DNA of 64,000 nucleotides from contig NZ_MDGL01000007.1 of the NCBI RefSeq assembly GCF_002742265.1, positions 124,001 through 188,000 on the forward strand. Reading direction: 5' to 3'. The position numbers and the translations under genes are program-made. Source of the DNA: Maribacter sp. 4G9. Its GTDB lineage: Bacteria > Bacteroidota > Bacteroidia > Flavobacteriales > Flavobacteriaceae. Shown one piece after another: positions 4,376 to 31,755 of this stretch. Positions within the stretch are counted from its first letter, which is position 1, and every line of letters begins with the position of its first letter. The notes below the pieces were generated by a model. That model did not search any database. It worked only from the letters and a program-made list of their open reading frames with translations, and was not told the origin of the DNA.

Positions 4376-6562
4376 ATGAAAAATATCAGCAAAAAAACAA
4401 TAGCACCCGTAGGCCGCAGACAGTTCCTAAAATCCTCTGGAGGAGCAGCCCTTTTTATTGGAGTTTCGGGCCTATTGCCCAATTTAATTTCCTGTACGGA
4501 CGCCAAAGGAATGCAAGGCCAATTAGCAAAACACGACGTTACCGCTTGGGTCCGCATCACCGAAGATGGCCAGATTACCATATACAATCCCGCCGCAGAA
4601 ATGGGCCAGGGATCCATGACGGCACTTCCGGTCATTTTTGCCGAAGAAATGGATGCTGATTGGTCCAACGTGAACGTAGAATTTTCTCCCCAGGAATCGG
4701 ACATTTACGGTTCCCCGGGATGGCAACCCGGCACCAAGCTTATGTTTACCGTAGGCAGCCGCACCACCAATAGCTATTATACTGTAATGCGCAAAGCGGG
4801 GGCTCAGGCCCGTTATGTGTTGCTGCATTCTGCGGCGACCCATTGGAAGGTACCCATTGAGGAATTGACTACGGATTCCAGTACAATCATTCACGAAAAA
4901 AACGGAAAAAAAATATCCTATGGTGACTTGGTGCCCTATTTGACCATGCCCGAAACCTTGCCTGATTTTAATGATGGGGGATTAAAAGATCCAAAAGATT
5001 TTAAATTAATCGGAAGTCAAATTCCCCGTACGGAAATCCCACAAAAAGTGGACGGCAGTGCCCAATTTGCCATCGACCTTCGTTTACCCGATATGGTTTA
5101 TGGTGTTTTGGAACGGGGTGCCTTACATGTGGCCAAACCCACACTAAACAATGAATCGGACATCCTCGCTATGGATGGTGTTTTAAAAGTTGTGCCTTTT
5201 GACTATGGCATTGGTGTAGTGGCCAATACCTTAGAGGCTGCCTTGGCAGCTAAAAAAGGGCTTGACATATCATGGAGCGATGCGCAGGCCTCCGGATTCA
5301 ACTCCCAAAAAATTTACGATGTGTATGCCCAAATGGCCAGTGCCCCAGAAAAGGGAAATACGGTTAATGAAGTGGGAGATGTGGGCCAAGCGTTTCGGAC
5401 GGCGGCCAAAACCTATGAGGCCGATTTCAGAAATGACTATGTGTACCATGCCCAAATGGAACCTCTGAATGCGGTGGTTCAAGTAGCGGCTGATGGCCAA
5501 AGTGCCGAAGTCTGGGTAGGTAGCCAGCAGGGTCCGGATACCAAATTGGGAATCCCCGATCTCTTGGGCATTCCCCACGAAGCCGTCAACGTACACCTGC
5601 AATATTTAGGAGGAGGTTTCGGACGACGCAGTATGAACGATTTTGTCCTGGAATGTGGTCGCTTGGCAAAAGAAATGGCACCCAGGCCCGTAAAGTTGCT
5701 ATGGACCCGGGAAGATGATGTCCGCTATGGTGCCTATAGACCCTTGACGTTGCAGCGGCTCAAAGTAAGTACCGATGCCCAGGGCAACCTCAGCAGTTTC
5801 TCGCACTGTGTGGTGGGCGATGGTGGCAATCTGGTGGCCAGCGGAGCAAGAAACGATCATTATGCTATCCCCAACCAGTGGGTGGAGTGGCGGGAAGCCT
5901 CGCACGGGGTACGCTTAAAACATTGGCGTTCCGTAGGGCACGGGCCCAATAAATTTGCCATCGAGGCGATGTTGGACGAAGTGGCCCATGACCAAAACAT
6001 AGATCCCGTGGCTTTTCGAAGAACACTGATGGCCGATTCCCCACGTGCCTTGGCTACCTTGGAAAAAGTGGCCGAAATTTCAGCTTGGGAAGCTCCTTCG
6101 CCCGAAGGTAGGGCCAAGGGTGTCGCCTTTGTGGAACATGGTTCCTTGGGAACCGGCGTATGTGAAATTTCGGTGGACCGCAACACGGGTAAAATCAACG
6201 TGCACCATTTTTGGATTGCCTTGGATGCCGGAGTGGTGGTACAACCGGACAATGTAAAGGCCCAAATGGAAGGGGGTATTATTATGGGCATCAGCTCCGT
6301 GCTCAAAGAACAGATTACCTTGGTGGATGGCCAAGTACAACAAAGCAACTACAATAGTTATCCACTCTTGCGCATGCAAGAAGTACCCGATAGCATTGAA
6401 ACGGTGATTATACCCTCAGCGGAACATCCGGAAGGCGTTGGCGAGACCGCTACCCCCATGGTGGCCGGGGCCATTGCCAATGCCTTTTTAAAATTGACGG
6501 GCAAACGCTTGCGACACCTACCCTTTACCCCAGACCGGGTTTTGGAGGTGTTGAACGGATAG
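4376..6562 (+). CDS. Molybdopterin-binding large subunit, IorB-like aldehyde/isoquinoline oxidoreductase
   Basis: 728 residues. N-terminus carries a twin-arginine signal: R14-R15-QFLK followed by a hydrophobic stretch ending 'LLPNLISC'. Family landmarks are 'NPAAEMGQGSMTALPVIFAEEMD', the repeated hydroxylase module 'IPRTEIPQKVDGSAQFAIDLRLPDMVYGVL', the glycine-rich 'LGGGFGRRSMNDF' and near the C-terminus 'EGVGETATPMVAGAIANAF', whose Glu corresponds to the catalytic glutamate of the family. It should bind molybdopterin cytosine dinucleotide and hydroxylate an aldehyde or N-heterocycle in the periplasm with the IorA-like partner at 3898. No MobA/XdhC-type maturation gene is in the window. Substrate unknown. 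Confidence 0.92.
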   Translation: MKNISKKTIAPVGRRQFLKSSGGAALFIGVSGLLPNLISCTDAKGMQGQLAKHDVTAWVRITEDGQITIYNPAAEMGQGSMTALPVIFAEEMDADWSNVNVEFSPQESDIYGSPGWQPGTKLMFTVGSRTTNSYYTVMRKAGAQARYVLLHSAATHWKVPIEELTTDSSTIIHEKNGKKISYGDLVPYLTMPETLPDFNDGGLKDPKDFKLIGSQIPRTEIPQKVDGSAQFAIDLRLPDMVYGVLERGALHVAKPTLNNESDILAMDGVLKVVPFDYGIGVVANTLEAALAAKKGLDISWSDAQASGFNSQKIYDVYAQMASAPEKGNTVNEVGDVGQAFRTAAKTYEADFRNDYVYHAQMEPLNAVVQVAADGQSAEVWVGSQQGPDTKLGIPDLLGIPHEAVNVHLQYLGGGFGRRSMNDFVLECGRLAKEMAPRPVKLLWTREDDVRYGAYRPLTLQRLKVSTDAQGNLSSFSHCVVGDGGNLVASGARNDHYAIPNQWVEWREASHGVRLKHWRSVGHGPNKFAIEAMLDEVAHDQNIDPVAFRRTLMADSPRALATLEKVAEISAWEAPSPEGRAKGVAFVEHGSLGTGVCEISVDRNTGKINVHHFWIALDAGVVVQPDNVKAQMEGGIIMGISSVLKEQITLVDGQVQQSNYNSYPLLRMQEVPDSIETVIIPSAEHPEGVGETATPMVAGAIANAFLKLTGKRLRHLPFTPDRVLEVLNG

Positions 6563-6631
6563 AAAATTTTTAATCGTCAAATAATAGAAAGTGGGTGCCG
6601 GTAATTAGCACTTCGACACTAAAAAAAATAC

Positions 6632-6943
6632 ATGTCTAACGAGACCTATAGAACCTGTCAAAATTGTGGGACCGAAAATTTAAATCGGGACTATTGTAAA
6701 AACTGTGGGGAAATAATCAATATTAATTTAAAAAGAAAGCTCGAACGCCAGCAAAAGGCCAAGGAAAAGAGCGCAACCCAAAAGGTCAAGAAAAAAAATA
6801 AAATAACGCTCTTCTTTGAAAACGCAAAGCAACATGAGAATATAGTCATCCGGTATACCGCCCGTTTTTTTTACTCTATTTGGATTGTGGTACTGGCCAT
6901 AGGTTCATTTTTAGCCTTGATTTTCGGATATATTGCGGCTTAA
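6632..6943 (+). CDS. Zinc-ribbon membrane protein
   Basis: 103 residues. N-terminal zinc ribbon with C9/C12 ('CQNC') and C22/C25 ('CKNC'), then a lysine-rich charged region (residues ~36-63) and one strong transmembrane helix near the C-terminus ('FFYSIWIVVLAIGSFLALIFGYIAA'). Topology would put the zinc ribbon in the cytoplasm. 17 nt separate its stop from the next small membrane protein gene, so they may be co-transcribed. No function is known to me. Confidence 0.65.
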   Translation: MSNETYRTCQNCGTENLNRDYCKNCGEIININLKRKLERQQKAKEKSATQKVKKKNKITLFFENAKQHENIVIRYTARFFYSIWIVVLAIGSFLALIFGYIAA

Positions 6944-6960
6944 GATTTGAAAGCATTCTG

Positions 6961-7329
6961 ATGAAGCAGGCCTTTCTAACCTTTCAAAAACACTATTTTC
7001 AGGTATTTTCACTCCTTGCGATGTTGGTCTATTTGGCGCAACGTTTGGAGATAACTCTTCCAGCGCTCGCAAATAATTATCTGAACGATTTCTTGTGTAT
7101 GCCCATTGTGCTAAAAATTTGTTTGGAAGGGGCGCGATTTATAAAATCAGATGATGAATTGCGATTGTCTCCTATCTTATGTGTTGTGGTTACGGCCCTG
7201 TTCGCTGGATACTTCGAAGGATATCTGCCCAATGTAAATGTGCGTTATACGCAAGACCCTTGGGACGTACTTTGCTACGCCCAAGGAATGTGCTTGTTTT
7301 TATATTTAGAGCGAAAAAGAAGCTCTTAA
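6961..7329 (+). CDS. Small integral membrane protein, unknown function
   Basis: 122 residues from the ATG at 6961; an in-frame TTG at 6880 would overlap the upstream gene and adds nothing family-like. Three to four hydrophobic segments ('VFSLLAMLVYLAQRL', 'DFLCMPIVLKICLEGARFI', 'LSPILCVVVTALFAGYF', 'DVLCYAQGMCLFLYLE') indicate a compact membrane protein, with 'GYFEGYLPNVNVRYTQDPWDVLCYAQG' as the most distinctive stretch. Similar short proteins occur in Flavobacteriia but I do not know their role. Confidence 0.6.
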   Translation: MKQAFLTFQKHYFQVFSLLAMLVYLAQRLEITLPALANNYLNDFLCMPIVLKICLEGARFIKSDDELRLSPILCVVVTALFAGYFEGYLPNVNVRYTQDPWDVLCYAQGMCLFLYLERKRSS

Positions 7330-7415: not shown

Positions 7416-7854
7416 TTATTCATCCCAAACCCCTATTGCCTCCTTAGCCAATAGCTGCGTCATGCGGAATTCCTTGTGCCGCTGGTCGCTATCCATTTGG
7501 TAATAACATTTAGAATAGACAAATCCATAATCTTTGGCATCCTGGGCAGAGGCCCCAAAATAAATGGCTTTAAACTGAGCCCAATGACATGCTCCCAAAC
7601 ACATCATACAAGGTTCGCAGCTGGTATATAGCACACAATCCTTTAAGCCATCCTTACCCAGTTTTTTTAGCGGCAATTTGAATGGCGTGTAGCTCCGCAT
7701 GCTGGGTAATGTCCTGTTCTTTTTTTACCTGGTTGTGTACAGCGCACACCACTTGACCTTTGAATACAATTACCGCACCAAAAGCACCTCCGGTAGAAGC
7801 GTTTTTCCCTTCTTTGGCCTTAGCGATTGCCATTTGCATATAATTTTCGTACAT
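7416..7854 (-). pseudogene. Nucleoside deaminase (guanine/cytidine-type), frameshifted
   Basis: Two overlapping minus-strand frames together give one normal deaminase. The N-terminal part (7854 down) has 'TGGAFGAVIV' and the zinc motif 'HAELHAI'; the C-terminal part (to 7416) has 'TSCEPCMMCLGACHW' with the PCxxC zinc ligands and ends 'AKEAIGVWDE'. The frames meet at a run of seven T at 7662-7668 (seven A in the gene). With six A the protein would read continuously as '...IAAKKLGKDGLKDCV...'. The +1 in a homopolymer could be a sequencing error, true inactivation, or slippage-dependent expression. The intact enzyme would be a ~146-residue CDA-superfamily cytosolic deaminase, most like guanine deaminase. 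Confidence 0.8.
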
Positions 7855-8103
7855 ACTTGTGTTTTATCGCTAAAGATACTTGGTTGACTACGACTTAAAG
7901 TGCTTGTTCACAATATCATTGAGCGTAATCCGCAAAATGGCATTGAGCAATACTTCATTATCTATCGTTTTTAAATTCAAAACATTTTAGAAGAACGGAC
8001 AGAACAAAATCCTCTCAAAAACATGTTTTGTATTGATTAACCGTAAATAATGGCGCTAACCCAAGAAATCAACTCTAGTCCGCATTTAAAAAAACAAAGG
8101 ATG

Positions 8104-8772
8104 TTATTCGTATAAGTGTGCCTCTTCTTCCTGCCTATCACGTTGTCGGGATTCCGCGATAAAATAAATGGCAATCAAGATGAGCCCGATCCATTCTGCC
8201 CAAAGTAGGGTAAATGGGTTGTGGTCCTTCCAAACCACATATTCCAGCAATAAATGGAATCCCAAGAATACAAGGGTCAAGACCCCCAACACATCGCCCA
8301 AAGTGTTTATTCTGGTTTCACGGGTGAGGATCATGGCCAGGGCACAGCCCACAAAGAATATACTGGCAAAAATGTAGTGAGTCCATTTAAAAGTGATGTG
8401 GTCAAAGAACAACACTCCAAACAGTGCCACTCCAAAGATGATGTTATAGCCCTTTCCAAAGCGGCTTTTGGCCTTTTTTACCAAGGGCTGCTTTTCCTTT
8501 TGAGCGGACATATGCTGGGCGCCGTTATAGATGAAGAGGGCCGCAGCCAAGGTCAATAGGCTCCCAAACCAATGCCCTGCCCACATAAAATAGTAATTGC
8601 TAATACTGTCCCTAAAAGTATCCCGGCAACCCAAATCCGCCCAATATAAGATAGCAGGAGTAAAAATTAGGACAGCGGCAATAAAACGTTCCAACTTAGC
8701 AAAGTGGTCCACTTCCTTTACCACTTTTTTACGAGCTTTTTGCACCGTAATTTTCATGTCCTGTAGGTTCAT
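8104..8772 (-). CDS. Six-helix membrane protein, DUF998-like
   Basis: 222 residues. After a basic cytoplasmic N-terminus ('ITVQKARKKVVKEVDHFAKLERF') there are about six transmembrane segments, starting 'FIAAVLIFTPAILYWADLG' and ending 'WIGLILIAIYFIAES', then a charged tail 'RQRDRQEEEAHLYE'. The 'DSISNYYFMWAGHWFGSLL' segment after the first helix recalls DUF998/frag1-type membrane proteins. The ATG five codons inside (M6, at 8757) is an alternative start. No neighbour suggests a role; the nearest genes are the frameshifted deaminase and a divergent hydrolase. Confidence 0.6.
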   Translation of the reverse strand: MNLQDMKITVQKARKKVVKEVDHFAKLERFIAAVLIFTPAILYWADLGCRDTFRDSISNYYFMWAGHWFGSLLTLAAALFIYNGAQHMSAQKEKQPLVKKAKSRFGKGYNIIFGVALFGVLFFDHITFKWTHYIFASIFFVGCALAMILTRETRINTLGDVLGVLTLVFLGFHLLLEYVVWKDHNPFTLLWAEWIGLILIAIYFIAESRQRDRQEEEAHLYE

Positions 8773-23319: not shown

Positions 23320-24486
23320 ATGAGAATTCTATTTGTTTTGGGCCTTATCTGCCTTGTTTCCAGTTGCAAAAACGAAAAAAACAACACCACCACGCCACAA
23401 GAAGAAACCACTTCTCTAATGGCGGGTACCGATACCTTGATCTATCCTGAGGAAAAGTATTTTAAAAGTATACGGCAAATTACGTTTGGCGGGGATAATG
23501 CCGAAGCGTATTGGAGCTGGGACGATAAACAAATGATCTTTCAGTCCAACAATGCCAATTGGGGATTAAACTGTGACCAGATGTTTCTGTTGAACGTGGA
23601 AGCGGGCATTCAGGATTCCATTCCTCCTATGGTGAGTACAGGCTATGGCCGAACTACATGTGCCTATTTTCTGCCAGACAACAAACATTTTGTTTACGGT
23701 TCTACGCATTTGGCGGATAAAGAATGTCCCGAGGTACCCTTAAGGCGAAACGGTGCCTATGTATGGCCGGTCTATGATTCCTTTGACATTTTTGTTGCGG
23801 ATCTAGAGGGAAACATCACAGCGCAATTGACTGACGAACCCGGATACGATGCCGAAGCCACCGTGTCGCCCAAGGGAGATAAAATTGTTTTCACTTCTAC
23901 CCGAAGTGGCGATTTGGAATTATACACCATGAACCTGGACGGGTCCGATGTTAAGCAGATTACCAATGAACTGGGCTATGACGGCGGCGCCTTTTTCTCC
24001 CCAGACGGCACAAAACTCATTTTTAGGGCATCCAGACCCAAAACCCCTGAAGCCATTAAAAAGTATAAAGATTTATTGGCTGAAGGTTTGGTAGAACCCA
24101 CCGATATGGAGCTTTTTATCTGTAATGCCGATGGAAGCGATTTGAAACAATTGACCTTTTTGGGCAATGCCAACTGGAGTCCGTTTTTTCACCCCTCGGG
24201 GAAAAAAGTGTTGTTCTCGAGTAACTTTGAAGCTGAAAAAGGATTTCCTTTCAATTTGTATTTTATTGATATCGACGGAAAGAATTTGGAACGTGTTACG
24301 CATGGGGAAACCTTTGATGCTTTTCCTGTTTTTTCTAATGACGGCAAATACCTGGCCTTTTCCAGTAATCGCAACAACAGAGGTACACGGGATACCAATC
24401 TGTTCATTGCAGAATGGCAAGAAGCCTCCCCTAACCCTGTGCCTTCCTCTCGCGATGGCTCGTCGGAGGCAGGAGGAGGGGAATGA
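23320..24486 (+). CDS. TolB-like PD40 beta-propeller lipoprotein
   Basis: 388 residues from the ATG at 23320, which opens the lipoprotein signal 'RILFVLGLICLVSSCKNEK' (lipobox VSSC). At least four PD40 blades are readable: 'GDNAEAYWSWDDKQMIFQS', 'GYDAEATVSPKGDKIVFTSTRSGDLELYTMNLDGSDVKQIT', 'GYDGGAFFSPDGTKLIFRASRP' and 'FDAFPVFSNDGKYLAFSSNRNNRGTRDTNLFIAEW'. The fold is a periplasmic beta-propeller that binds protein or ligand, as in TolB. Its stop overlaps the next start (ATGA), so it is translationally coupled to the Lgt-like gene. Confidence 0.85.
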   Translation: MRILFVLGLICLVSSCKNEKNNTTTPQEETTSLMAGTDTLIYPEEKYFKSIRQITFGGDNAEAYWSWDDKQMIFQSNNANWGLNCDQMFLLNVEAGIQDSIPPMVSTGYGRTTCAYFLPDNKHFVYGSTHLADKECPEVPLRRNGAYVWPVYDSFDIFVADLEGNITAQLTDEPGYDAEATVSPKGDKIVFTSTRSGDLELYTMNLDGSDVKQITNELGYDGGAFFSPDGTKLIFRASRPKTPEAIKKYKDLLAEGLVEPTDMELFICNADGSDLKQLTFLGNANWSPFFHPSGKKVLFSSNFEAEKGFPFNLYFIDIDGKNLERVTHGETFDAFPVFSNDGKYLAFSSNRNNRGTRDTNLFIAEWQEASPNPVPSSRDGSSEAGGGE

Positions 24487-25262
24487 TAATGATATTTTTA
24501 TCTTCCATTCCAATTGAGCCCGAACTCTTTGGCCATAAGGTCAATGTGCATTTGGTATTGGAATACCTGGCTTTTCTTGTAGGGTTTCGTTATTATCTTT
24601 TCTTACGGAAAAATTCCACGGACAACATATCCTCAAACAACCGGCTTTCCATTATCATAGGGGCTATTTTTGGCGCACTTTTCTTTTCCCGATTGATTGC
24701 CTTTTTGGAGAACCCAGTCCTACACTGGGATCAAGGTTGGATTGCCATCTTTAACAATAAGACTATCATGGGCGGCTTGTTCGGCGGGTTATTGGGCGTA
24801 GAATTTGCAAAAAAGATTATTGGGGAGCAACAATCTTCCGGGGATTTGTTCACACTACCCATTATATTGGGCATCATTATAGGTAGAACGGGATGTTTCC
24901 TGGCGGGTATGAAGGAGTTCACGTATGGAAAGACCACAAACTTTTTCTTGGGGATGGATTTAGGCGATGGTTTAGATCGTCACCCCATAGCACTTTATGA
25001 AATCTTCTTTTTGATTCTGCTGTTCATTGGCATCCAAAAACTAAAGCATAGTGCTGTTTCCTTGGAGAACGGATCTTTGTTTAAGGTATTCATGGTAAGT
25101 TATTTTGGATTCCGCTTTTTGGTCGAGTTTCTTAAACCTAATAGTTTTTATATTCTAGGCCTCAGTAGCATTCAGATTTTATGTTTACTTTGTTTCCTTT
25201 ATTATCACCAATTTATCCTTCAAGGAATATTTTATGCCCGAAAAAAACTACACCTATTATGA
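24483..25262 (+). CDS. Lgt-like integral membrane protein (divergent prolipoprotein diacylglyceryl transferase family)
   Basis: 259 residues, about seven transmembrane helices. Resemblance to Lgt: 'KTIMGGLFGGLLGVEFAKK' at the place of the Lgt GG-rich loop, 'ILGIIIGRTGCFLAGM' at the place of the Lgt signature GRIGNFINGE, and 'RHPIALYEIFFLIL' matching HPxxLYE. Arg135 is kept, but positions that are Asn and Glu in E. coli Lgt (N146, E151) read as C138 and M143, and the His of the GG loop is missing, so ordinary lipoprotein diacylglyceryl transfer is doubtful. Start ATG overlaps the upstream stop by 4 nt; the 3' end overlaps the radical SAM gene by 29 nt. Function inferred only as a lipid-related transferase. 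Confidence 0.78.
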   Translation: MIMIFLSSIPIEPELFGHKVNVHLVLEYLAFLVGFRYYLFLRKNSTDNISSNNRLSIIIGAIFGALFFSRLIAFLENPVLHWDQGWIAIFNNKTIMGGLFGGLLGVEFAKKIIGEQQSSGDLFTLPIILGIIIGRTGCFLAGMKEFTYGKTTNFFLGMDLGDGLDRHPIALYEIFFLILLFIGIQKLKHSAVSLENGSLFKVFMVSYFGFRFLVEFLKPNSFYILGLSSIQILCLLCFLYYHQFILQGIFYARKKLHLL

Positions 25263-26628
25263 TTTTACAATTAGCTTATGTCCCGAATGTCTTCGAAGGA
25301 TTGATGCCAAGATAGTTTTTGAGGAAGGGAAGGTGTATATGCTTAAAAATTGTCCGGAACACGGACGCTCCAAAATTTTGATTGCGGACGATATTGAATA
25401 CTACAAAAACATCCGTAACTATAATAAAGCCTCCGAATATCCAAAAACCTTCAACACCAAAACCCATTATGGTTGCCCCTATGATTGCGGCCTTTGTCCC
25501 GATCATGAGCAGCATTCATGTCTTACGGTGGTCGAATTAACGGACCGTTGCAACCTTACCTGCCCTACCTGTTATGCAGGTTCTTCACCAACTTATGGAA
25601 GGCATAGAACCTTGGAAGAGGTAAAAACAATGTTGGATGTTATCGTAAAAAACGAAGGGGAACCAGATGTGGTCCAGCTTAGTGGTGGCGAACCTACCTT
25701 ACATCCTCAGTTTTTTGAAATTTTGGATTATACAAAATCCTTGCCCATTCGCCACTTGATGGTAAATACCAACGGTATTAAAATCGCGAAGGATTTTGAA
25801 TTTGTAGAACGCTTGGCAACCTATATGCCTGATTTTGAAATTTACCTCCAGTTCGATTCCTTGGACAATCACGTTTTACAAACTTTGAGAGGGGCGGACC
25901 TGACCGAAATCCGTCTACAAGCCTTACAACATTTAAACCAATTAAACCTTTCCACAACTTTGGTAGTGACCCTCCAAAAAGGTCTAAACGACCACGAGAT
26001 GGGAAAGACCATAGATTTTGCCCTTCAACAAAAATGTGTGCGCGGGGTCACCTTTCAACCAACACAGATAGCGGGGCGGTTGGAAAATTTTGAGGTGGAC
26101 GAAAATAGGATCACGCTTACAGAGGTGCGGAGAAAGATTTTGGAGCAATCCCCTATTTTTGAACCGGACGACCTTATTCCCGTCCCTTGTAACCCAGATG
26201 CCCTGGTCATGGCCTATGCCTTAAAATTGGGAAATGAAGTTAGTCCGTTAACACGTTACATCAACCCGGATGATTTGCTGAACGAAGGAAAAAACACCAT
26301 CATCTATGAACAGGATGAACAACTGCATGGCAAAATGATCGAGCTTTTTAGTACGGGAAATTCTGTGGAAAAAGCATCGGAAAACCTAAAGAGTATCATG
26401 TGCTGCCTCCCGGAAATCGATGCGCCGGAACTTGGTTATGACAATCTGTTCAGGATCATCATCATGCAGTTCATAGATGCCCATAATTTTGATGTGCGGG
26501 CCATAAAAAAATCCTGTGTGCACATCGTAAACAAGGACAATAAGATTATCCCTTTTGAGACGATGAATCTTTTTTACAGGGATGATAAAATAGAACGATT
26601 GAAAGAACTACAAAAACAAACACCATGA
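25234..26628 (+). CDS. Radical SAM protein of the Tes/MJ0619-like family
   Basis: 464 residues. N-terminal metal-binding segment C16xxC19...C40PEH43; second cysteine set C81-C85-C88-C96 ('GCPYDCGLCPDHEQHSC'); then the radical SAM cluster C106xxxC110xxC113 ('DRCNLTCPTCYAG') and 'VQLSGGEPTLHPQF'. This cysteine layout ('CPYDCGLC.DH...C...E.T.RCNL.CP.C') is that of the archaeal MJ0619/tetraether synthase (Tes) family, which joins lipid tails by carbon-carbon bonds. The cysteine pattern is seen; the lipid role is inferred from family and from overlap with an Lgt-like membrane protein. Substrate is unknown and other members may act on other molecules. Overlaps its neighbours by 29 and 4 nt. Confidence 0.85.
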   Translation: MPEKNYTYYDFTISLCPECLRRIDAKIVFEEGKVYMLKNCPEHGRSKILIADDIEYYKNIRNYNKASEYPKTFNTKTHYGCPYDCGLCPDHEQHSCLTVVELTDRCNLTCPTCYAGSSPTYGRHRTLEEVKTMLDVIVKNEGEPDVVQLSGGEPTLHPQFFEILDYTKSLPIRHLMVNTNGIKIAKDFEFVERLATYMPDFEIYLQFDSLDNHVLQTLRGADLTEIRLQALQHLNQLNLSTTLVVTLQKGLNDHEMGKTIDFALQQKCVRGVTFQPTQIAGRLENFEVDENRITLTEVRRKILEQSPIFEPDDLIPVPCNPDALVMAYALKLGNEVSPLTRYINPDDLLNEGKNTIIYEQDEQLHGKMIELFSTGNSVEKASENLKSIMCCLPEIDAPELGYDNLFRIIIMQFIDAHNFDVRAIKKSCVHIVNKDNKIIPFETMNLFYRDDKIERLKELQKQTP

Positions 26629-26837
26629 GCATATTTTCGCTAGAAGTTGGCAATTTGGACGGATTGTTTGTCCTTATAATTCTCATAATGTTCGGTCCTG
26701 CGATACTGTTGGGCATCATTGGCGTTGTGTTGATATCACAAAATAAAAAGAAGTCCGGTAAAGTCTTTGTGATTCTGGCTGGGGTGTATTTGCTCGTTAG
26801 CCTTGGAATATGTGGGTCTATGATGATTGGATTATAA
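26625..26837 (+). CDS. Small two-helix membrane protein, last gene of the Lgt-like/Tes-like operon
   Basis: 70 residues, start overlapping the radical SAM stop by 4 nt (ATGA). Two transmembrane helices ('LFVLIILIMFGPAILLGIIGVVLI' and 'VFVILAGVYLLVSLGICGSMMIG') joined by a basic loop 'SQNKKKSGK', which should be cytoplasmic. Not a family I recognise. Translational coupling suggests a structural or targeting subunit for the upstream enzymes. Its stop is 1 nt from the convergent stop of the outer-membrane barrel gene, with no terminator between. Confidence 0.7.
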   Translation: MSIFSLEVGNLDGLFVLIILIMFGPAILLGIIGVVLISQNKKKSGKVFVILAGVYLLVSLGICGSMMIGL

Positions 26838-26838
26838 T

Positions 26839-29244
26839 CTAGATCCTATTCCCTTCGTCCGTACTTTTTCGCTTTTGGTTATCCCGTATCTTATTATTTC
26901 CAAACCTGTATCTGAACCCAATAAAAAATAGCCTAGTCTCCCTTCTGGAAAAAGTGCTGTTGTCCTGGTTCAGATAATTACGGGTATAGAAGAAGTTTCC
27001 ATCATTAAAAACATCATCAAAGGAAAAGGACAATGTCGCCTTTCGCTGCCAAAAGGTTTTGCTAAGGGAAAGAATAAGCTGACTGGTGGATTCCCGTGTG
27101 GAATTGCCCAACACCACTGGTGAGGAATATCTAAAAAGTACATCCGCATACAGGGAACGGTCCTTTAACAGGGTAAAATAATTATTAAAGCGCACGTTGC
27201 CCGTCCATAATCCATTACTCAAAATTGCTCCGCTATCGATATCCCTAAAACTAGTTTGTTTATTGTAGTAGGTAAGCAAAAGATAGGTGTCCCAAAACCT
27301 AGTCCAACTTTTGTTAAATCTGAATTCCGCGCCGTAGGTTATGTTTGACTCCAAATTGACGCTCAAGAAACGAAGTAGATTGCTTTCATTATCCTGCACC
27401 ACCTGTTCAAAGAAGTCATTGCTATCGTCAAAATAATACACTTCCAATGAATAGTCCTTTCCAATACCATACTCCAAGGATACATAATTCCTGATAGCAG
27501 GTCTTAGATTTGGGTTGCCCTCTACGACCGTATTGTTGCTCTGAAAAAATTGGAAAGGGTTTAAATCACTATATCTAGGCCGCGTAATCCTTCTGTAGTA
27601 ACGCAATGCCAGATTGTGCTTGTTCTTGAATTCGTGTCGGGCAGATAATGAGGGGAAAAGTTCCAAATATGAATTTTTGATGGGGTCACCGGCCGTATCG
27701 AGGTCTCCTATGGTTTCGGTATATTCGGAACGAAGCCCCATGTTCAATTGCCAATTTTCCCAAGAATTATTAAGGCTAGCGTACCCTGCCATAATCTGCT
27801 CGTCATAATCAAAAACACCCGCCTCCGTAGGGCTGATTCCTGGTTGGGTCCTGTCGAAACCTTCTTGGCTGATGGTAGATTGGGAGTTTATACCGGAATA
27901 CCGCAGACCTGCTTCCAATGTGGATGATTTTTTTATCGGGTTGGTATAATCGACCTGGGCACTGTAGATGGCCGTTTTTTGGCTGGATTGTGTCGTAAAA
28001 TCGTTATCTCCCGTTGTGATTCCATCACTGTCAAAGAAATCGGTGTCCAGATCTTGCCCCCTGTTATACTGATAAAAAGTGTAATTGGTAGCCACGGAAA
28101 TACTTTCGCCCTTCTTATCGAATTTATGTGTCCAGTCCAGATAGTATGCCGAATTTAGGGCATCGAAATCGGAATCGTTTGCCGTTAGAAAACTGGACCG
28201 TAGATCCCTCGATGTGTCTTCAATTAGGGTTTCAGAATCAATAAACCTGTTGGCGGGAGCTGTAAACGAATTGATCGTAGAAAAACTAAGGTTATTTTTG
28301 TCATTTATCTGATAATCAAAAAAACCGCTGACATTATGTTGATTGCTCCTGGTAATGGTCCTTTGTTCCGTCGTCCAGACCTCATCTATAGTTCCGGAAT
28401 CAAAAAAATTGGTAATATCCGTAAACCTTCTTAAGTCCTTGCTTTTTCTAAAACTATAGGAAAGTGAAAAATCCGTTTTCTTGCCCTTAAAAAAGTGGTC
28501 TGTCCCGATTATATGCTTAGGGAAAACCGCCTGTGTATATCTATTATAAACAGACCCATTATACCCCGCGATAAGGTTCTTCTTCATTTTTATGTCCAAT
28601 AGAAGTCCGCCCTCGGCACTGAATTTGGCCGGGGGATTTAAAATTACCTCCACGGATTCCACATTGTCACCGGAACTACCCGAAAGTAGGTTGACGATAT
28701 CGGCTTGGGGAATGTTCACCAATCTGCCATTAATCATGACCCCAATATTGGAACTTCCCTTGATATTGATCTTATCGTTTACAATGATAACCCCGGGGGT
28801 CTGTTTTAAAATGTCCCAGATATTCCCTTGGGACAAGGAAGTATTTTCTACGTTAAAAATGAGTCGGTCTGCCAACTGCTCTATGGTGGGTTTTTTATAG
28901 GTGACTTCCACCTCCTCCAATTGGGTTTCCGTCTGGAGAATGATCATATCCGCCAAGGACATATCCGAAGCGACTTCCAAAGGGCGTATATCACTCGAGG
29001 TATCCAAATAACTCGCGGATATTAGGTAGGTTCCAGCTTGTACATTGACAAGTGTGTAGCGTCCCTCTTCATCTGTGGCGGTTCCTTTAACCAATACGGA
29101 ATCCTGATTCTTTAAAAGGACGTTTGCAAAGACCAAGGCGTCCCCATTTTGGTCCTTAACGCTTCCCGATAGTTCAAATTCCTGGGCATTTGTGGCCAAC
29201 GTAGTCAAAAAAACAAAGAAAAGGAATGATAAGGCTGGCTTCAT
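26839..29244 (-). CDS. Outer-membrane beta-barrel protein with CarboxypepD_reg and plug domains (paralogue 1)
   Basis: 801 residues. Signal peptide 'ALSFLFFVFLTTLATNAQ'; residues ~22-100 form a carboxypeptidase-D regulatory-like beta-sandwich ('FELSGSVKDQNGDALVFANVLLKNQDSVLVKGTATDEEGRYTLVNV'); residues ~115-220 a plug-like domain ('WDILKQTPGVIIVNDKINIKGSSNIGVMINGR', 'VESVEVILNPPAKFSAEGG'); the rest is a beta-barrel with a C-terminal aromatic strand region ('RLFFIGFRYRFG'). It belongs to the TonB-receptor-like outer-membrane barrel family common in Bacteroidota. No TonB box, SusD partner or regulator is visible, so the ligand is unknown. A paralogue lies directly upstream, 102 nt away. Confidence 0.88.
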   Translation of the reverse strand: MKPALSFLFFVFLTTLATNAQEFELSGSVKDQNGDALVFANVLLKNQDSVLVKGTATDEEGRYTLVNVQAGTYLISASYLDTSSDIRPLEVASDMSLADMIILQTETQLEEVEVTYKKPTIEQLADRLIFNVENTSLSQGNIWDILKQTPGVIIVNDKINIKGSSNIGVMINGRLVNIPQADIVNLLSGSSGDNVESVEVILNPPAKFSAEGGLLLDIKMKKNLIAGYNGSVYNRYTQAVFPKHIIGTDHFFKGKKTDFSLSYSFRKSKDLRRFTDITNFFDSGTIDEVWTTEQRTITRSNQHNVSGFFDYQINDKNNLSFSTINSFTAPANRFIDSETLIEDTSRDLRSSFLTANDSDFDALNSAYYLDWTHKFDKKGESISVATNYTFYQYNRGQDLDTDFFDSDGITTGDNDFTTQSSQKTAIYSAQVDYTNPIKKSSTLEAGLRYSGINSQSTISQEGFDRTQPGISPTEAGVFDYDEQIMAGYASLNNSWENWQLNMGLRSEYTETIGDLDTAGDPIKNSYLELFPSLSARHEFKNKHNLALRYYRRITRPRYSDLNPFQFFQSNNTVVEGNPNLRPAIRNYVSLEYGIGKDYSLEVYYFDDSNDFFEQVVQDNESNLLRFLSVNLESNITYGAEFRFNKSWTRFWDTYLLLTYYNKQTSFRDIDSGAILSNGLWTGNVRFNNYFTLLKDRSLYADVLFRYSSPVVLGNSTRESTSQLILSLSKTFWQRKATLSFSFDDVFNDGNFFYTRNYLNQDNSTFSRRETRLFFIGFRYRFGNNKIRDNQKRKSTDEGNRI

Positions 29245-29346
29245 TGGTTAATGGTAGTCGCCGACTAAGATAAAAAAGTTGTTCGGAAATATCTTACAAT
29301 GAAAATCTATTTGTAAGAAAATCAGAAAAAGTCCGTATATTTTGAC

Positions 29347-31755
29347 TTATTCTGAACCGATCCGGTCCCTTTCCGCTTTTTCTATTTGACGTTTGTTGTC
29401 CTCCAATCTGAAATTACCGAAATTATAGGTGAAGGAAAGTCGTACATTTTGTAGTTCCTCAAACGGACTATAGGAATTGTCCTGGTTTAAGTATCTTGAC
29501 GTAAAAGAGGGATTTGCTTTGCCCAAAATATCGTTGAAGTTGAGGCTTATCTCTGCCCTTTTGTTCCATAAGGACTTCTGGAGCCCCATGGTAAGGTTGG
29601 TAGTTTCTGTCATATCAAATGATGCCAACAAAAACCCCGATAAATAAGCCAACCCCAACTCTCCTTTCAAAGTACCATCCTTGGAGAGGGTCAAATAATT
29701 GGTGACATCTATATAATAGCCATTAATTGAATTGGTCGCGGAAAAAGCATCGCTTTCCAAGGCCAAAAAGGTCTCTTCCTCATGAAAAATGGAAATATAG
29801 CCGTAGAGGTACCAGTTGTTGGTGATTGATTTTCCGTAATTAAAGTCGAAACCGTACGAGTTACTTTTTAAAGCATTAAACGTTACATCCCTAAGGATTT
29901 GGTTTTCATTGTCCTGAAAAGTATAAAGGGATATGAAATTACCGTTGTTCCTGTAATAAAAATCGAAGAAAAACTCTTGGTTCAACGTATAGTTCAAGTT
30001 GAAATTATTACTGAAATGAGGAACTAGGTTTGGATTCCCCTCTGCAAAGACATTTTCATTTATAAATGTTCTAAAGGGGTTTAAATCTTCGTATCTGGGC
30101 CGTTTTAGTTTTCTGGAATAATCAAAGGCCAGGCTATGGTTTTCATTGATAGTATGCAAAACGTAAAAAGATGGAAAAAGCTCAAAATACTCAAGATCAT
30201 TAACCGTGGAAAGTGCCAAGGAATTTCCGGAACTTTGGGTGTGTTCCGCCCTAAGGCCCGCTTTAATGCTCCATTTTTCCCAGTCCTTGGAAGCGCTTAT
30301 ATACCCAGCATATACCCGCTCATCATACAGGTAATTGTCAGACAGCCCTGGCACGAAAACACGCCCGTTGTTCTCCGTGAAAAACTGTAATCGACTATCC
30401 GAATTTATCAAGGAAGCCTTTGCCCCGGTTTCAAAACTTACGCTACCAAAGAGCTTACTGTAGTCTACTTGGGCCGTTATGATTTCAATATCCTGAACGG
30501 CATCCGTAAAGAAACTATAATTTCGTATGAAATCACCGGAAGGTAGAAAATAGTTGGAGCTGGCACTTTGCGTTCGGTTTAAGTCAAAGGCGGTGTAATG
30601 GCCATTGACCATTAAGGTCCCGTTTTCCTTAAACGTGTGCTTATAGGTTACATCCCCGGAAATGTTATTCTTGCTCTCGTCCAAAAAACTGGCCGTCGTA
30701 AAGGTCGAATCCAAAACACCAATGCCGTTTGTGATAAAGGTGTTTTGAAAGTTGTCATACTCCCTTTTTGGGGAAAGCTGCATGTTGGTGGTTATGTTTA
30801 GTTCATTTCGTTCGTTAATGGTATAATCCAGCGTTAGCCCGCCTATGTGCGTTTCAAACCTGTTGGTCTTGTCAAAATCTGTATCCCATCGGGAAAAAAT
30901 ACCCGTATCGTCTATAAAGTTGGTCCTGTTCTGAACGTTCTTAAAGTCCTTTCTAGGGGCGTAGGCATAAGAAGCGTTGATATTGAGTTTATCTGTCTTG
31001 TAAAAATGTGAAGTGCCAAAATTGTATTTAGGAAAGATTCCTTGGGTGTAATTTGTACTAATATTGCCCTTATAGCCCAAAGAAATGTTTTTATTGGTAA
31101 TAATGTTCAAAACGGCCCCACCCTCCGCATCATACTTTGCAGGGGGGTTATTGATGACCTCAACGGATTTTATGTTCTGGCCTTGATAATTTTCTAGTAG
31201 GTTTCTCACCTCCGATGGGGACAATTGGACTTTCCTGTCATTAATGTATACCACAGCGGGCTGGTTACGGATTTGAAGCTCGTCCTGCATTAGAATAACA
31301 CCGGGTGTTTGCTTTAGGATGTCCCAGGAAGTGCTTTGTGACAACACGGTATTTTCAACATTAAAAACCAACCTGTCCACTTTACGCTCCACCTTGGGCC
31401 TTGCGGACATTACAACTACCTCGTCCAATTGCTCTGCCTGTTCTGGAATGATCAAAGCCCCAATTTTGATATCTGACCGAATGTCCAAGGGAAGTCCTTG
31501 AGAGGTTTTTCCAATGTAGGAACATTGAACAATGTAAAGCCCAGGGTCGATATCGGCAATTAAAAAAATACCCAGTTCATCTGCCGATGTACCTTTGACC
31601 ATAACCGAATCTGTAGCCTGCAATAAAAAAACCGAAGCAAAGGGGATGGTTTCGCCCAAATCGTCCCTTACCGTTCCCGTTAGTTGATAGGATTGGCTAT
31701 GCGCTATTTGGCAATACCCTAGGAAAGCTAGGAAAAATAGCAGTAGTGGTCTCAC
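29347..31755 (-). CDS. Outer-membrane beta-barrel protein with CarboxypepD_reg and plug domains (paralogue 2)
   Basis: 802 residues, co-linear with the gene at 26839-29244 throughout. Signal 'PLLLFFLAFLGYCQIAHS'; N-terminal beta-sandwich 'YQLTGTVRDDLGETIPFASVFLLQATDSVMVKGTSADELGIFLI'; plug segment 'SWDILKQTPGVILMQDELQIRNQPAVVYINDRKVQLSPSEVRNLLENYQGQNIKSVEVINNPPAKYDAEGGAVLNI'; barrel with 'LAFDYSRKLKRPRYEDLNPF' matching 'LALRYYRRITRPRYSDLNPF' of the partner. The pair looks like a tandem duplication that diverged. Gap between them 102 nt; they may share a transcript starting upstream of this gene. Confidence 0.88.
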   Translation of the reverse strand: MRPLLLFFLAFLGYCQIAHSQSYQLTGTVRDDLGETIPFASVFLLQATDSVMVKGTSADELGIFLIADIDPGLYIVQCSYIGKTSQGLPLDIRSDIKIGALIIPEQAEQLDEVVVMSARPKVERKVDRLVFNVENTVLSQSTSWDILKQTPGVILMQDELQIRNQPAVVYINDRKVQLSPSEVRNLLENYQGQNIKSVEVINNPPAKYDAEGGAVLNIITNKNISLGYKGNISTNYTQGIFPKYNFGTSHFYKTDKLNINASYAYAPRKDFKNVQNRTNFIDDTGIFSRWDTDFDKTNRFETHIGGLTLDYTINERNELNITTNMQLSPKREYDNFQNTFITNGIGVLDSTFTTASFLDESKNNISGDVTYKHTFKENGTLMVNGHYTAFDLNRTQSASSNYFLPSGDFIRNYSFFTDAVQDIEIITAQVDYSKLFGSVSFETGAKASLINSDSRLQFFTENNGRVFVPGLSDNYLYDERVYAGYISASKDWEKWSIKAGLRAEHTQSSGNSLALSTVNDLEYFELFPSFYVLHTINENHSLAFDYSRKLKRPRYEDLNPFRTFINENVFAEGNPNLVPHFSNNFNLNYTLNQEFFFDFYYRNNGNFISLYTFQDNENQILRDVTFNALKSNSYGFDFNYGKSITNNWYLYGYISIFHEEETFLALESDAFSATNSINGYYIDVTNYLTLSKDGTLKGELGLAYLSGFLLASFDMTETTNLTMGLQKSLWNKRAEISLNFNDILGKANPSFTSRYLNQDNSYSPFEELQNVRLSFTYNFGNFRLEDNKRQIEKAERDRIGSE

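Follow-up and report, generated by a model that had tools for sequence, protein, structure and literature searches.

An Lgt-like protein, a tetraether synthase-related radical SAM protein and a small membrane protein with a C-terminal cysteine form a conserved gene unit: a possible lipid-on-cysteine modification system

The window, the whole stretch of 64,000 nucleotides from Maribacter sp. 4G9 that was analysed, contains a run of four overlapping genes coding for a PD40 protein, an Lgt-like membrane protein, a radical SAM protein (RSAM) and a small membrane protein (Table 1). As given in the original prediction, a note made from the DNA letters alone, the overlaps begin at 24483, 25234 and 26625; in the ORF list they measure 4 nt (PD40/Lgt-like), 29 nt (Lgt-like/RSAM) and 4 nt (RSAM/small protein). 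That prediction had grouped all four genes and had cast the PD40 propeller as a periplasmic partner. Three of the genes, those for the Lgt-like protein, the RSAM and the small membrane protein, are strongly supported as a conserved unit, but the PD40 gene is only a local neighbor. It adjoins the unit at 14 of 56 loci and is still present in two genomes from which the unit has been lost; therefore, it was rejected as a partner.

Table 1. Features of the locus, in window coordinates
Feature	Position	Strand	Basis or remarks
PD40 protein gene	23320-24486	+	ORF; PF07676 PD40, E=3e-34
Lgt-like membrane protein, 259 aa, noncanonical PF01790 member	24483-25262	+	PF01790, fold model
Lgt signature segment RTGCFLAGMKEFTYG, R135-G149	24885-24929	+	R143 and G154 equivalents kept; N146 -> C138; E151 absent
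RSAM, Tes/TrsS superfamily, Lgt-linked group, 464 aa	25234-26628	+	profiles, tree, fold
Rubredoxin-type site C16-x2-C19-x20-C40-x2-H43	25279-25362	+	spacing same as in MJ0619
N-terminal auxiliary [4Fe-4S] motif C81, C85, C88, H91	25474-25506	+	101/101 Lgt-group rows each
Radical SAM CX3CX2C motif C106, C110, C113	25549-25572	+	101/101 Lgt-group rows each
Small membrane protein with two helices, 70 aa; putative acceptor substrate	26625-26837	+	ORF and relatives
C-terminal ending S-L-G-I-C-G-S-M-M-I-G-L	26799-26834	+	Cys63 codon 26811-26813

Among 299 Flavobacteriaceae genomes, the Lgt-like protein was found in 37 and the RSAM in 38; all 37 were shared, and the 38th RSAM match is a relic with a stop. 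Across many phyla, 72 of 80 loci hold the Lgt-like gene and the RSAM gene together, and the Lgt-like gene lies within about 1.5 kb of the RSAM gene at 77 of the 80 loci L001-L080. Five of the eight loci without a local Lgt-like gene have one elsewhere in the genome, and genomes G385 and G613 likewise carry it away from the RSAM locus. Among 14 rechecked genomes, the Lgt-like gene was not found in three (G865, G866, and G868, all MAGs), and the 5 kb of sequence upstream of the G866 locus (L140) is without it. We also observed scraps of the RSAM and of the small protein in G015, G020, and G130, in a stretch with no Lgt-like gene. Because the Lgt-like protein and the RSAM share genomes, share loci and are lost jointly, they form one functional unit, as had been proposed, and one that reaches far beyond the Maribacter genome. 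The neighborhood is thus conserved outside the source genome, and the description of a "flavobacterial system" was too narrow, since carriers of the trio include Bacteroidota, Paenibacillus, cyanobacteria, Acidobacteriota and others. Divergent clusters additionally carry an ICMT-like methyltransferase.

The Lgt-like protein matched PF01790 LGT (E=5e-21, 75.6 bits, above the Pfam cut-off of 24.9) but scored 35.3 bits with the NCBIfam lgt profile TIGR00544, below its cut-off of 118.9; the source genome has three further PF01790 genes, scoring 195 to 224 bits. Its model (pLDDT, 91.9) had a sole PDB match at E < 0.001, the Lgt structure 5azb (E=9e-6, TM 0.54), so that the predicted fold agrees with the family relationship originally suggested. 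In an alignment of 88 Lgt-like proteins, the equivalents of the donor-site residues R143, R239, E202, Y235, and G154 of E. coli Lgt are each present in 88 of 88, including the catalytic Arg143 and Arg239 (R135 and R211 in the window protein), and the E243 position holds Glu or Asp in all of them. The divergence noted at His103, Asn146, and Glu151 was borne out: none of the 88 has His at the His103 place (M96 in the window protein), 87 have Cys at the Asn146 place, and none has Glu at the Glu151 place (+5). In addition, Tyr26 is replaced by His in 80 of the 88. Sections of the Lgt structure paper tie R143 and R239 to diacylglyceryl transfer, propose H103 for peptide binding and describe His103, part of the HGGL motif, as essential in E. 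coli Lgt (PMC4728403). The E. coli signature GRxGNFxNxE contains both Asn146 and Glu151.

The RSAM matched PF04055 (E=1e-25) and PF23545 Zn_ribbon_HMPTM (E=3e-20), and aligned with the archaeal tetraether synthase (Tes) MJ0619 at E=3e-69 and 28 to 29% identity. Its NCBIfam scores stayed below the cut-offs, both for Tes (NF045702, 289.8 bits against 450) and for TrsS (NF045646, 325 bits against 490), the latter being its best. As seen by structure search, the predicted fold matches 7tom (TM 0.80, E=9e-39), with the best match of any other fold at 5e-10. Matches to anti-phage viperin in PADLOC reached 47 to 50 bits over residues 101 to 238, a part of the radical SAM core, and this assignment was rejected, the fold being that of Tes. 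With the metal ligands of the MJ0619 rubredoxin site taken from the structural sections of PMC9433317, the sequence and predicted fold identify the RSAM as a protein with the Tes fold and three of the four Tes metal sites. The cysteine plan that had been read from the DNA therefore held for the rubredoxin, N-terminal cluster and CX3CX2C sites but not for C338, C455, and C470 of MJ0619, which are A323, S427, and E442 in the window protein. Cysteines at these three places are also found in four rows assigned to the MJ0619 group and in three TrsS-like rows, and their conservation suggests that they are presumably the ligands of the C-terminal cluster; among 101 rows of the Lgt-linked group, Cys occurs 15 times at the C338 place and once each at the C455 and C470 places. 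A C-terminal cluster with shifted ligands may still be present in these proteins. In Tes, which couples lipid tails by C(sp3)-C(sp3) bonds, the C-terminal [4Fe-4S] cluster holds the substrate radical, and the chemistry depends on it. Tyr459 of MJ0619 is replaced by I431 in the window RSAM and by Ile in 94 of the 101 rows; according to passages of PMC9433317, this residue is fully conserved in the archaeal enzymes, yet dispensable for activity.

In the tree, the RSAM branches apart from MJ0619, and 40 rows labeled Lgt-linked share one branch (support 97/92); for seven rows the label rests on an Lgt-like gene located away from the RSAM locus, and for one (L139) no such gene was found. The branch also takes in L201, a very long row that lacks an Lgt-like gene in the surrounding 1.5 kb or so, and a strict clade of Lgt-linked RSAMs was therefore rejected; the placement of L201, like that of L096, is uncertain. 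TrsS-like rows, none of them above the 490-bit cut-off, are among the nearest rows outside the group. The RSAM is not a true TrsS, given that none of 12 tested genomes with the Lgt-linked kind exceeded 490 bits; in the portions of the literature consulted, TrsS has a single mention, in a table that gives no function. Overall, "Tes-like" is apt for the fold, but not for the profile scores, the position in the tree or the presumed cluster cysteines.

The small two-helix protein is present as described; what the original prediction did not include is the cysteine conserved near its C-terminus, the most telling pointer to function. Its score with DUF4064 (24.6 bits) is below the cut-off of 32.1. 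Among 19 Bacteroidota sequences, C63 is the sole invariant column. A new result, drawn from sequence comparison, is that the product of the third gene belongs to a diverse group of small membrane proteins, frequently encoded in tandem, that have in common a last helix with [GSA]-x-Cys at its end, close to the C-terminus. By a rule drawn up after viewing the loci of this first count, the motif is carried by 95 of 133 small hydrophobic ORFs beside the unit and 3 of 237 elsewhere. In loci outside rule-setting, the figures were 87 of 103 and 0 of 27, with 16 of the 80 loci being the same places as L081-L100. Two or three copies lie at 22 of 92 loci, and copy pairs (n=28) have a median identity of 44% (range, 19 to 61%). 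Under the strict rule, no motif protein was found at 23 of the 92 loci; a looser rule gives a plausible one at 10 of these and inspection by eye at 3 (L091, L110, and L096), leaving 10 without one even so (L084, L111, L120, L127, L139, L144, L155, L165, L175, and L181). The motif also lies beside divergent enzymes, as on a Mycobacterium branderi plasmid (RSAM, 31%); larger proteins, 160 and 303 aa long, carry it in an archaeal MAG. In the source genome, the search for further copies gave one weak match (E=0.5), with a model built from close relatives that distant ones could escape. Net charge ahead of the last helix is positive in 77 of 95 motif proteins; after the Cys it is positive in 25 of 95, which makes the topology of some of them uncertain. 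Only 2 of the 95 fit the lipobox [LVI][ASTVIG][GAS]C, making processing by signal peptidase II unlikely.

Read together, the sequences suggest to us, at a little short of an even chance, that the trio is dedicated to the lipid modification of a cysteine. The small protein would be its dedicated acceptor substrate, with the last helix running from the cytoplasm to the outside and the Cys placed near the outer face of the inner membrane, at the level of the lipobox Cys of lipoprotein precursors though at the C-terminus. Having kept the phospholipid (donor) site of Lgt and rebuilt the acceptor site, the Lgt-like enzyme would transfer a glycerolipid group onto this Cys. The RSAM could abstract hydrogen from an unactivated carbon of the lipid or of the modified anchor, giving an unusual lipid or anchor, e.g., cross-linked, methylated or sulfur-bearing. 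The sequences themselves show the unit with its conservation and joint loss, the Cys motif, and which residues are kept or replaced; the substrate role, the topology, the lipidation and the radical step with its order are what we infer. The sidedness counts against this scheme: the RSAM active site is expected to be cytoplasmic and the Cys near the outer face, so that the steps would take place on different sides or involve a lipid that flips. A bolder version, which we regard as rather unlikely, would be a new class of membrane-anchor biogenesis: a C-terminal "inverted lipobox", an outward-running helix with [GSA]-x-Cys at its end, would be lipidated by an Lgt relative, perhaps via its own active-site C138 (the N146 place), after which a Tes relative would form a radical bond between lipid chains or between lipid and anchor, giving a protein-bound, radically modified lipid new to lipidomics in bacteria of many phyla.

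Other readings give the same genes different roles. The Lgt-like protein and the RSAM might make a free lipid, with the small protein as a subunit, scaffold or regulator whose Cys acts in the complex, e.g., as a redox or cluster contact. This is conceivable, if on the unlikely side: the RSAM has the fold of a lipid enzyme, the small protein usually adjoins the enzymes and the source genome has no clear second copy, but nearly free sequence variation around one Cys, divergent tandem copies and, in one MAG, the motif on larger proteins all suit a substrate better. Variable tandem small proteins next to a radical SAM gene also resemble precursor peptides, and further fold neighbors include the peptide maturases SkfB and SuiB, which would fit a RiPP-like system where the RSAM modifies the small protein (e.g., by forming a thioether at its Cys), with the Lgt-like protein helping in docking or lipid delivery. 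However, over its full length the fold is that of MJ0619, as are the metal sites, and not that of the SPASM maturases (9e-39 versus 1e-9 for SkfB), and the invariant donor residues make a mere scaffold role unlikely for the Lgt-like protein; we consider this reading distinctly unlikely.

The reading first put forward, with a Tes-type enzyme coupling lipid tails, Lgt loading ordinary lipoproteins and PD40 as periplasmic partner, draws on the resemblance of the RSAM to MJ0619 and on the PF01790 membership. It is set against the replacement of C338, C455, C470, and Y459 of MJ0619 and of H103, N146, and E151 of Lgt, the three other, higher-scoring Lgt genes of the genome, and a PD40 gene that is not conserved and persists where the unit is lost, and it appears improbable. 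That an ordinary Lgt paralogue and an unrelated radical SAM gene are chance neighbors is scarcely credible, being already contradicted by the 37 shared genomes of 299, the 72 of 80 loci and the joint loss.

Both papers identifying the archaeal enzyme mention, in the parts consulted, bacterial tetraether synthase homologues without shown function (PMC9433317, PMC8941075). One such branch is now sorted out together with the partner genes specific to it, and a substrate, a residue and a phenotype can be put to the test. Within the open-licence papers searched, we found no on-topic paper linking Lgt with tetraether or radical SAM enzymes. If the favored lipid-on-cysteine system is real, Bacteroidota, Paenibacillus, cyanobacteria, Acidobacteriota and others would have a way to modify membrane proteins with lipid at the C-terminal end, and the annotation of "prolipoprotein diacylglyceryl transferase family" paralogues would change.

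With Tes/GDGT-MAS (MJ0619; 7TOL and 7TOM), the RSAM shares the whole fold, the rubredoxin site, the N-terminal cluster with its His, CX3CX2C, and equivalents of R210 and Q268. It differs in the replaced C338, C455, C470, and Tyr459, in other conserved cysteines (C96, C319, C390, and C391), in its separate branch and in its partners, the Lgt-like and small proteins. TrsS, a radical SAM (seleno)protein, gives its best NCBIfam score, but three TrsS-like rows retain the Tes cysteines that the window RSAM lacks, and a methyltransferase gene, not an Lgt gene, adjoins two of these three rows and two plasmid relatives in a comparison that leaves out L203 and L205 (loci L207 and L209). The Lgt-like protein has in common with Lgt (5AZB and 5AZC) the fold and the R143, R239, E202, Y235, and G154 equivalents; it differs in lacking His103 and Glu151, in having Cys for Asn146 and mostly His for Tyr26, and in its TIGR00544 score. 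Lgt transfers a diacylglyceryl group to the Cys of lipobox proteins, whereas the Lgt-like gene adjoins one for a dedicated C-terminal-Cys protein; the lipobox of a lipoprotein precursor is in the N-terminal signal peptide, and the Cys of the small protein is near the C-terminus. Papers on C-terminal anchoring of the GlyGly-CTERM/rhombosortase and archaeosortase kind include PMC6219818 and PMC7157517. Systems of this type pair a dedicated membrane enzyme with a membrane segment at the C-terminus that bears a short motif, and the C-terminus becomes anchored to lipid. The trio has the same logic of a short-motif C-terminal segment and a paired membrane enzyme, but its enzymes are unrelated, and it has a Cys motif, an RSAM partner and, as a rule, no large cargo domain.

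The four open reading frames and their overlaps, as originally predicted, were borne out by the window sequence. Pfam analysis identified PD40 repeats in the product of the first gene, an LGT domain (PF01790, 75.6 bits) in the second and, in the third, the radical SAM enzyme (RSAM), a radical SAM domain together with an N-terminal zinc ribbon as in proteins of the type of MJ0619, the archaeal tetraether synthase Tes; no Pfam family scored above its cut-off for the 70-residue small protein. The nearest NCBIfam families to RSAM were the related TrsS (325 bits; cut-off, 490) and then Tes (290 bits; cut-off, 450), and the Lgt-like protein reached 35 bits with the lgt model (cut-off, 119). By these cut-offs, both enzymes are near the TrsS/Tes and lgt families and members of none. 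The Lgt-like, RSAM, and small-protein genes are referred to as the trio.

Coordinates of the genes in the window and at three compared loci
Feature	Location	Coordinates	Strand	Remark
PD40 gene	window	23320-24486		directly 5' of the trio
Lgt-like gene	window	24483-25262	+	trio
RSAM gene	window	25234-26628	+	trio
Small-protein gene	window	26625-26837	+	trio
Two tandem genes (~800 aa)	window	26839-31755	opposite	convergent with the trio; receptor-like (outer-membrane) by eye
Tandem proteins (160 and 303 aa)	L171, archaeal MAG	5700-7105		beside the Lgt-like/RSAM pair
ArsP-like permease gene (PF03773, E=1e-33)	L109, Ktedonosporobacter	7568-8488		immediately 3' of RSAM
Lgt-like reading frame broken into pieces, with RSAM open	L110, Flavobacterium davisii	5277-5967

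Among 299 genomes of the Flavobacteriaceae, a set that includes the window's own, 38 had an RSAM match and 37 a match to the Lgt-like protein; these 37 genomes were the same, and the 38th RSAM match was a relic with a stop (genome G130). RSAM matches, Tes-like ones counted too, occurred in 34/395 genomes of a phylum sample, and at least 80 RSAM loci were retained from a scan of a species-genome collection. Among the matches listed, loci were found in Bacteroidota, Bacillota (Paenibacillus, Fictibacillus), Cyanobacteria, Chloroflexota (Ktedonosporobacter), Pseudomonadota (Reyranella), Acidobacteriota, Myxococcota, Planctomycetota, Armatimonadota, Elusimicrobiota, and Actinomycetota, as well as in one Leptospiraceae MAG and one archaeal MAG, with misbinning possible for some MAG contigs. 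The neighborhood is conserved beyond this genome: among the matches listed, the Lgt-like gene shared the locus with RSAM in 72 of 80, within about 4 kb, and five of the remaining eight genomes (G863, G864, G867, G744, and G869; contig end close to RSAM in some) carried a partner-type Lgt-like gene elsewhere (160 to 312 bits). The genome search found no Lgt-like gene in G865, G866, and G868, all MAGs. In G385 and G613, the Lgt-like gene lay elsewhere in the genome, outside the 19.5-kb stretch, and in G855, G825, and G798, which have TrsS-like RSAMs only, Lgt matches reached only 43 to 78 bits. Even for an RSAM of 32% identity (L096), a divergent Lgt-like gene was immediately upstream, and on a Mycobacterium branderi plasmid (RSAM, 31%) it was two small genes upstream.

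The conserved unit consists of three genes, PD40 excluded. Across the 56 loci from the two initial searches, the trio genes were mostly together, and PD40 adjoined them in 14, 11 of them from this genus, as viewed in 1.5-kb flanks that reveal only part of a neighboring PD40. In two genomes of the same genus (G015 and G020), the M28 peptidase and PD40 genes aligned unbroken (409/414 and 368/388 residues), followed 3' by a TonB-type gene; between PD40 and the latter, only scraps of RSAM (55 to 56 residues) and of the small protein were present, and the Lgt-like gene was absent. Scraps of RSAM and the small protein also persisted in G130, where the genome search gave no Lgt-like match. These remnants indicate that the trio is lost as one and PD40 stays behind, its loss not being coupled. 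Both the count and this retention in G015 and G020 speak against PD40 as the periplasmic partner it had been proposed to be. Of 35 other genomes in the genus, 26 gave a strong RSAM match (counted from search rows); given this patchy presence and the relics, the trio is dispensable within the genus. The relics in these three Flavobacteriaceae genomes (L234, L235, and L236) have PD40 and M28 still alongside in two.

One to three small hydrophobic proteins are encoded 3' of RSAM or, in some groups, beside the Lgt-like gene instead. They diverge strongly between lineages and share a common ending, in which a usually present positively charged loop is followed by a helix, the motif [GSA]-x-C, and 3 to 14 residues; position -4 to the Cys is G in 71/95 and S in the window protein. 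Under a rule defined after inspection of these same loci, the motif occurred in 95/133 small hydrophobic ORFs beside the trio versus 3/237 at other positions of these loci, and at least one motif protein was present at 69/92 loci, with two or three at 22 of these. At L001 to L080, independent of rule setting except for 16/80 that are the same places as L081 to L100, a motif protein was found at 67/78 loci, and the motif in 87/103 neighbors versus 0/27 opposite-strand ORFs. Of the 11 misses, five were read: the ending was present after all at L026 and L033, encoded between the Lgt-like gene and RSAM at L029, variant at L077, and absent at L068. The Cys was the sole invariant column in an alignment of 19 Bacteroidota relatives (A2), and the median identity between tandem small proteins was 44% over 28 pairs. 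In M. branderi, two motif proteins lie between the Lgt-like gene and RSAM. The tandem L171 proteins, with N termini EF-hand-like by eye, carry the same kind of helix-Cys ending, as if it were a cargo-carrying tag; the last 50 residues as query matched only these two in that MAG. Overall, the sequence pattern of the small proteins suggests a substrate rather than an enzyme.

After removal of the genomes' own canonical Lgts, the partner set comprised 88 rows. Equivalents of R143, G154, E202, Y235, and R239 (E. coli Lgt numbering) were present in all 88, as was E or D at E243; His103 and Glu151 were found in 0/88, and Cys replaced Asn146 in 87/88, L109 being the only row still with Asn. The E. 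coli Lgt study reports that transfer requires R143 and R239, that R143, E202, Y235, and R239 are among the residues of a second phospholipid pocket, and that His103 is a proposed binder of the lipobox peptide (PMC4728403). Since R143, E202, Y235, and R239 are kept and His103 is lost, the donor side appears unchanged and the acceptor side remodeled. The predicted structure (pLDDT 91.9) had the Lgt entry 5azb as its sole match with E < 0.001 (TM 0.54), in line with the likeness originally noted. The window's genome has three further PF01790 genes, all scoring higher.

Canonical Lgt transfers diacylglycerol from phospholipid to a cysteine located where an outward-running signal helix ends on the outer side. 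The small protein would present a comparable cysteine, at the outward-facing end of its last helix, which the Lgt-like enzyme may lipidate, and RSAM, with its putative lipid-tail-accepting fold, would perform a radical reaction on the lipid, after or before lipidation. Divergent clusters encode an ICMT-like methyltransferase, assigned by Pfam at L095, L105, and L106, and a DUF4395 protein, assigned by Pfam at L095 and L105; at L108, both were assigned through BLAST clusters. These neighbors also fit lipid and cysteine chemistry.

The predicted RSAM structure (pLDDT 83.7) matched MJ0619 over its full length (TM 0.80, E=9e-39; next-best other fold, 5e-10), upholding the proposed relation to Tes. 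Metal-site ligands were compared with those described for MJ0619 (PMC9433317). Of the Tes cysteine plan first read in the sequence, the rubredoxin, N-terminal, and radical SAM sites stood, being intact in at least 99 of 101 Lgt-group rows (99 distinct sequences); C338, C455, and C470 (MJ0619 numbering), the presumed ligands of the C-terminal cluster, did not, being mostly Ala, Ser, and Glu or Asp, with Cys remaining in 15/101, 1/101, and 1/101. All three are Cys in MJ0619, in L097, L098, L200, and L201, which we grouped with it, and in three TrsS-like rows. The Lgt group has Ile at Tyr459 in 94/101 and Met at Met439 in 83/101. N-terminal-cluster cysteines are mostly missing in L098, L200, and L201, so the Tes/TrsS relatives vary at sites beyond the C-terminal one. 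Additional Lgt-group cysteines (C96 and C319 in 101/101; C390 and C391 in 94/101) might hold a shifted cluster. In Tes, the radical of the first lipid is stored through a sulfur-carbon bond to the C-terminal cluster (PMC9433317); with this site apparently lost or redesigned here, the reaction need not be tail coupling. In a 49-row tree, one branch (97/92) held all 40 rows labeled Lgt-linked and the very long row L201, and a 100/99 branch separated them from MJ0619, L097, and L098; the latter two are Bacteroidota Tes homologues without a neighboring Lgt-like gene (L098 versus MJ0619, E=1e-100).

A methyltransferase gene, presumably ArsM/TrsM-like, adjoins two TrsS-like rows, L199 and L204 (loci L206 and L208, where it was named by eye), and two relatives on plasmids, L231 and L232, whereas the trio has an Lgt-like neighbor. 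The four come, respectively, from a chloroflexote, an actinobacterial-phylum genome, and plasmids of a Mycolicibacterium and a haloarchaeon. These methyltransferase-linked genes, outside the Lgt-linked group, apparently form a sister system. A search of mainly open-access journal literature found no publication that deals with the small protein or with the pairing of the Lgt-like protein and RSAM. The function proposed here is a hypothesis; nevertheless, because to our knowledge no known system combines an Lgt-like protein, an RSAM, and such a small protein, and both enzymes fall short of what defines their nearest families, we regard the trio as a new system.
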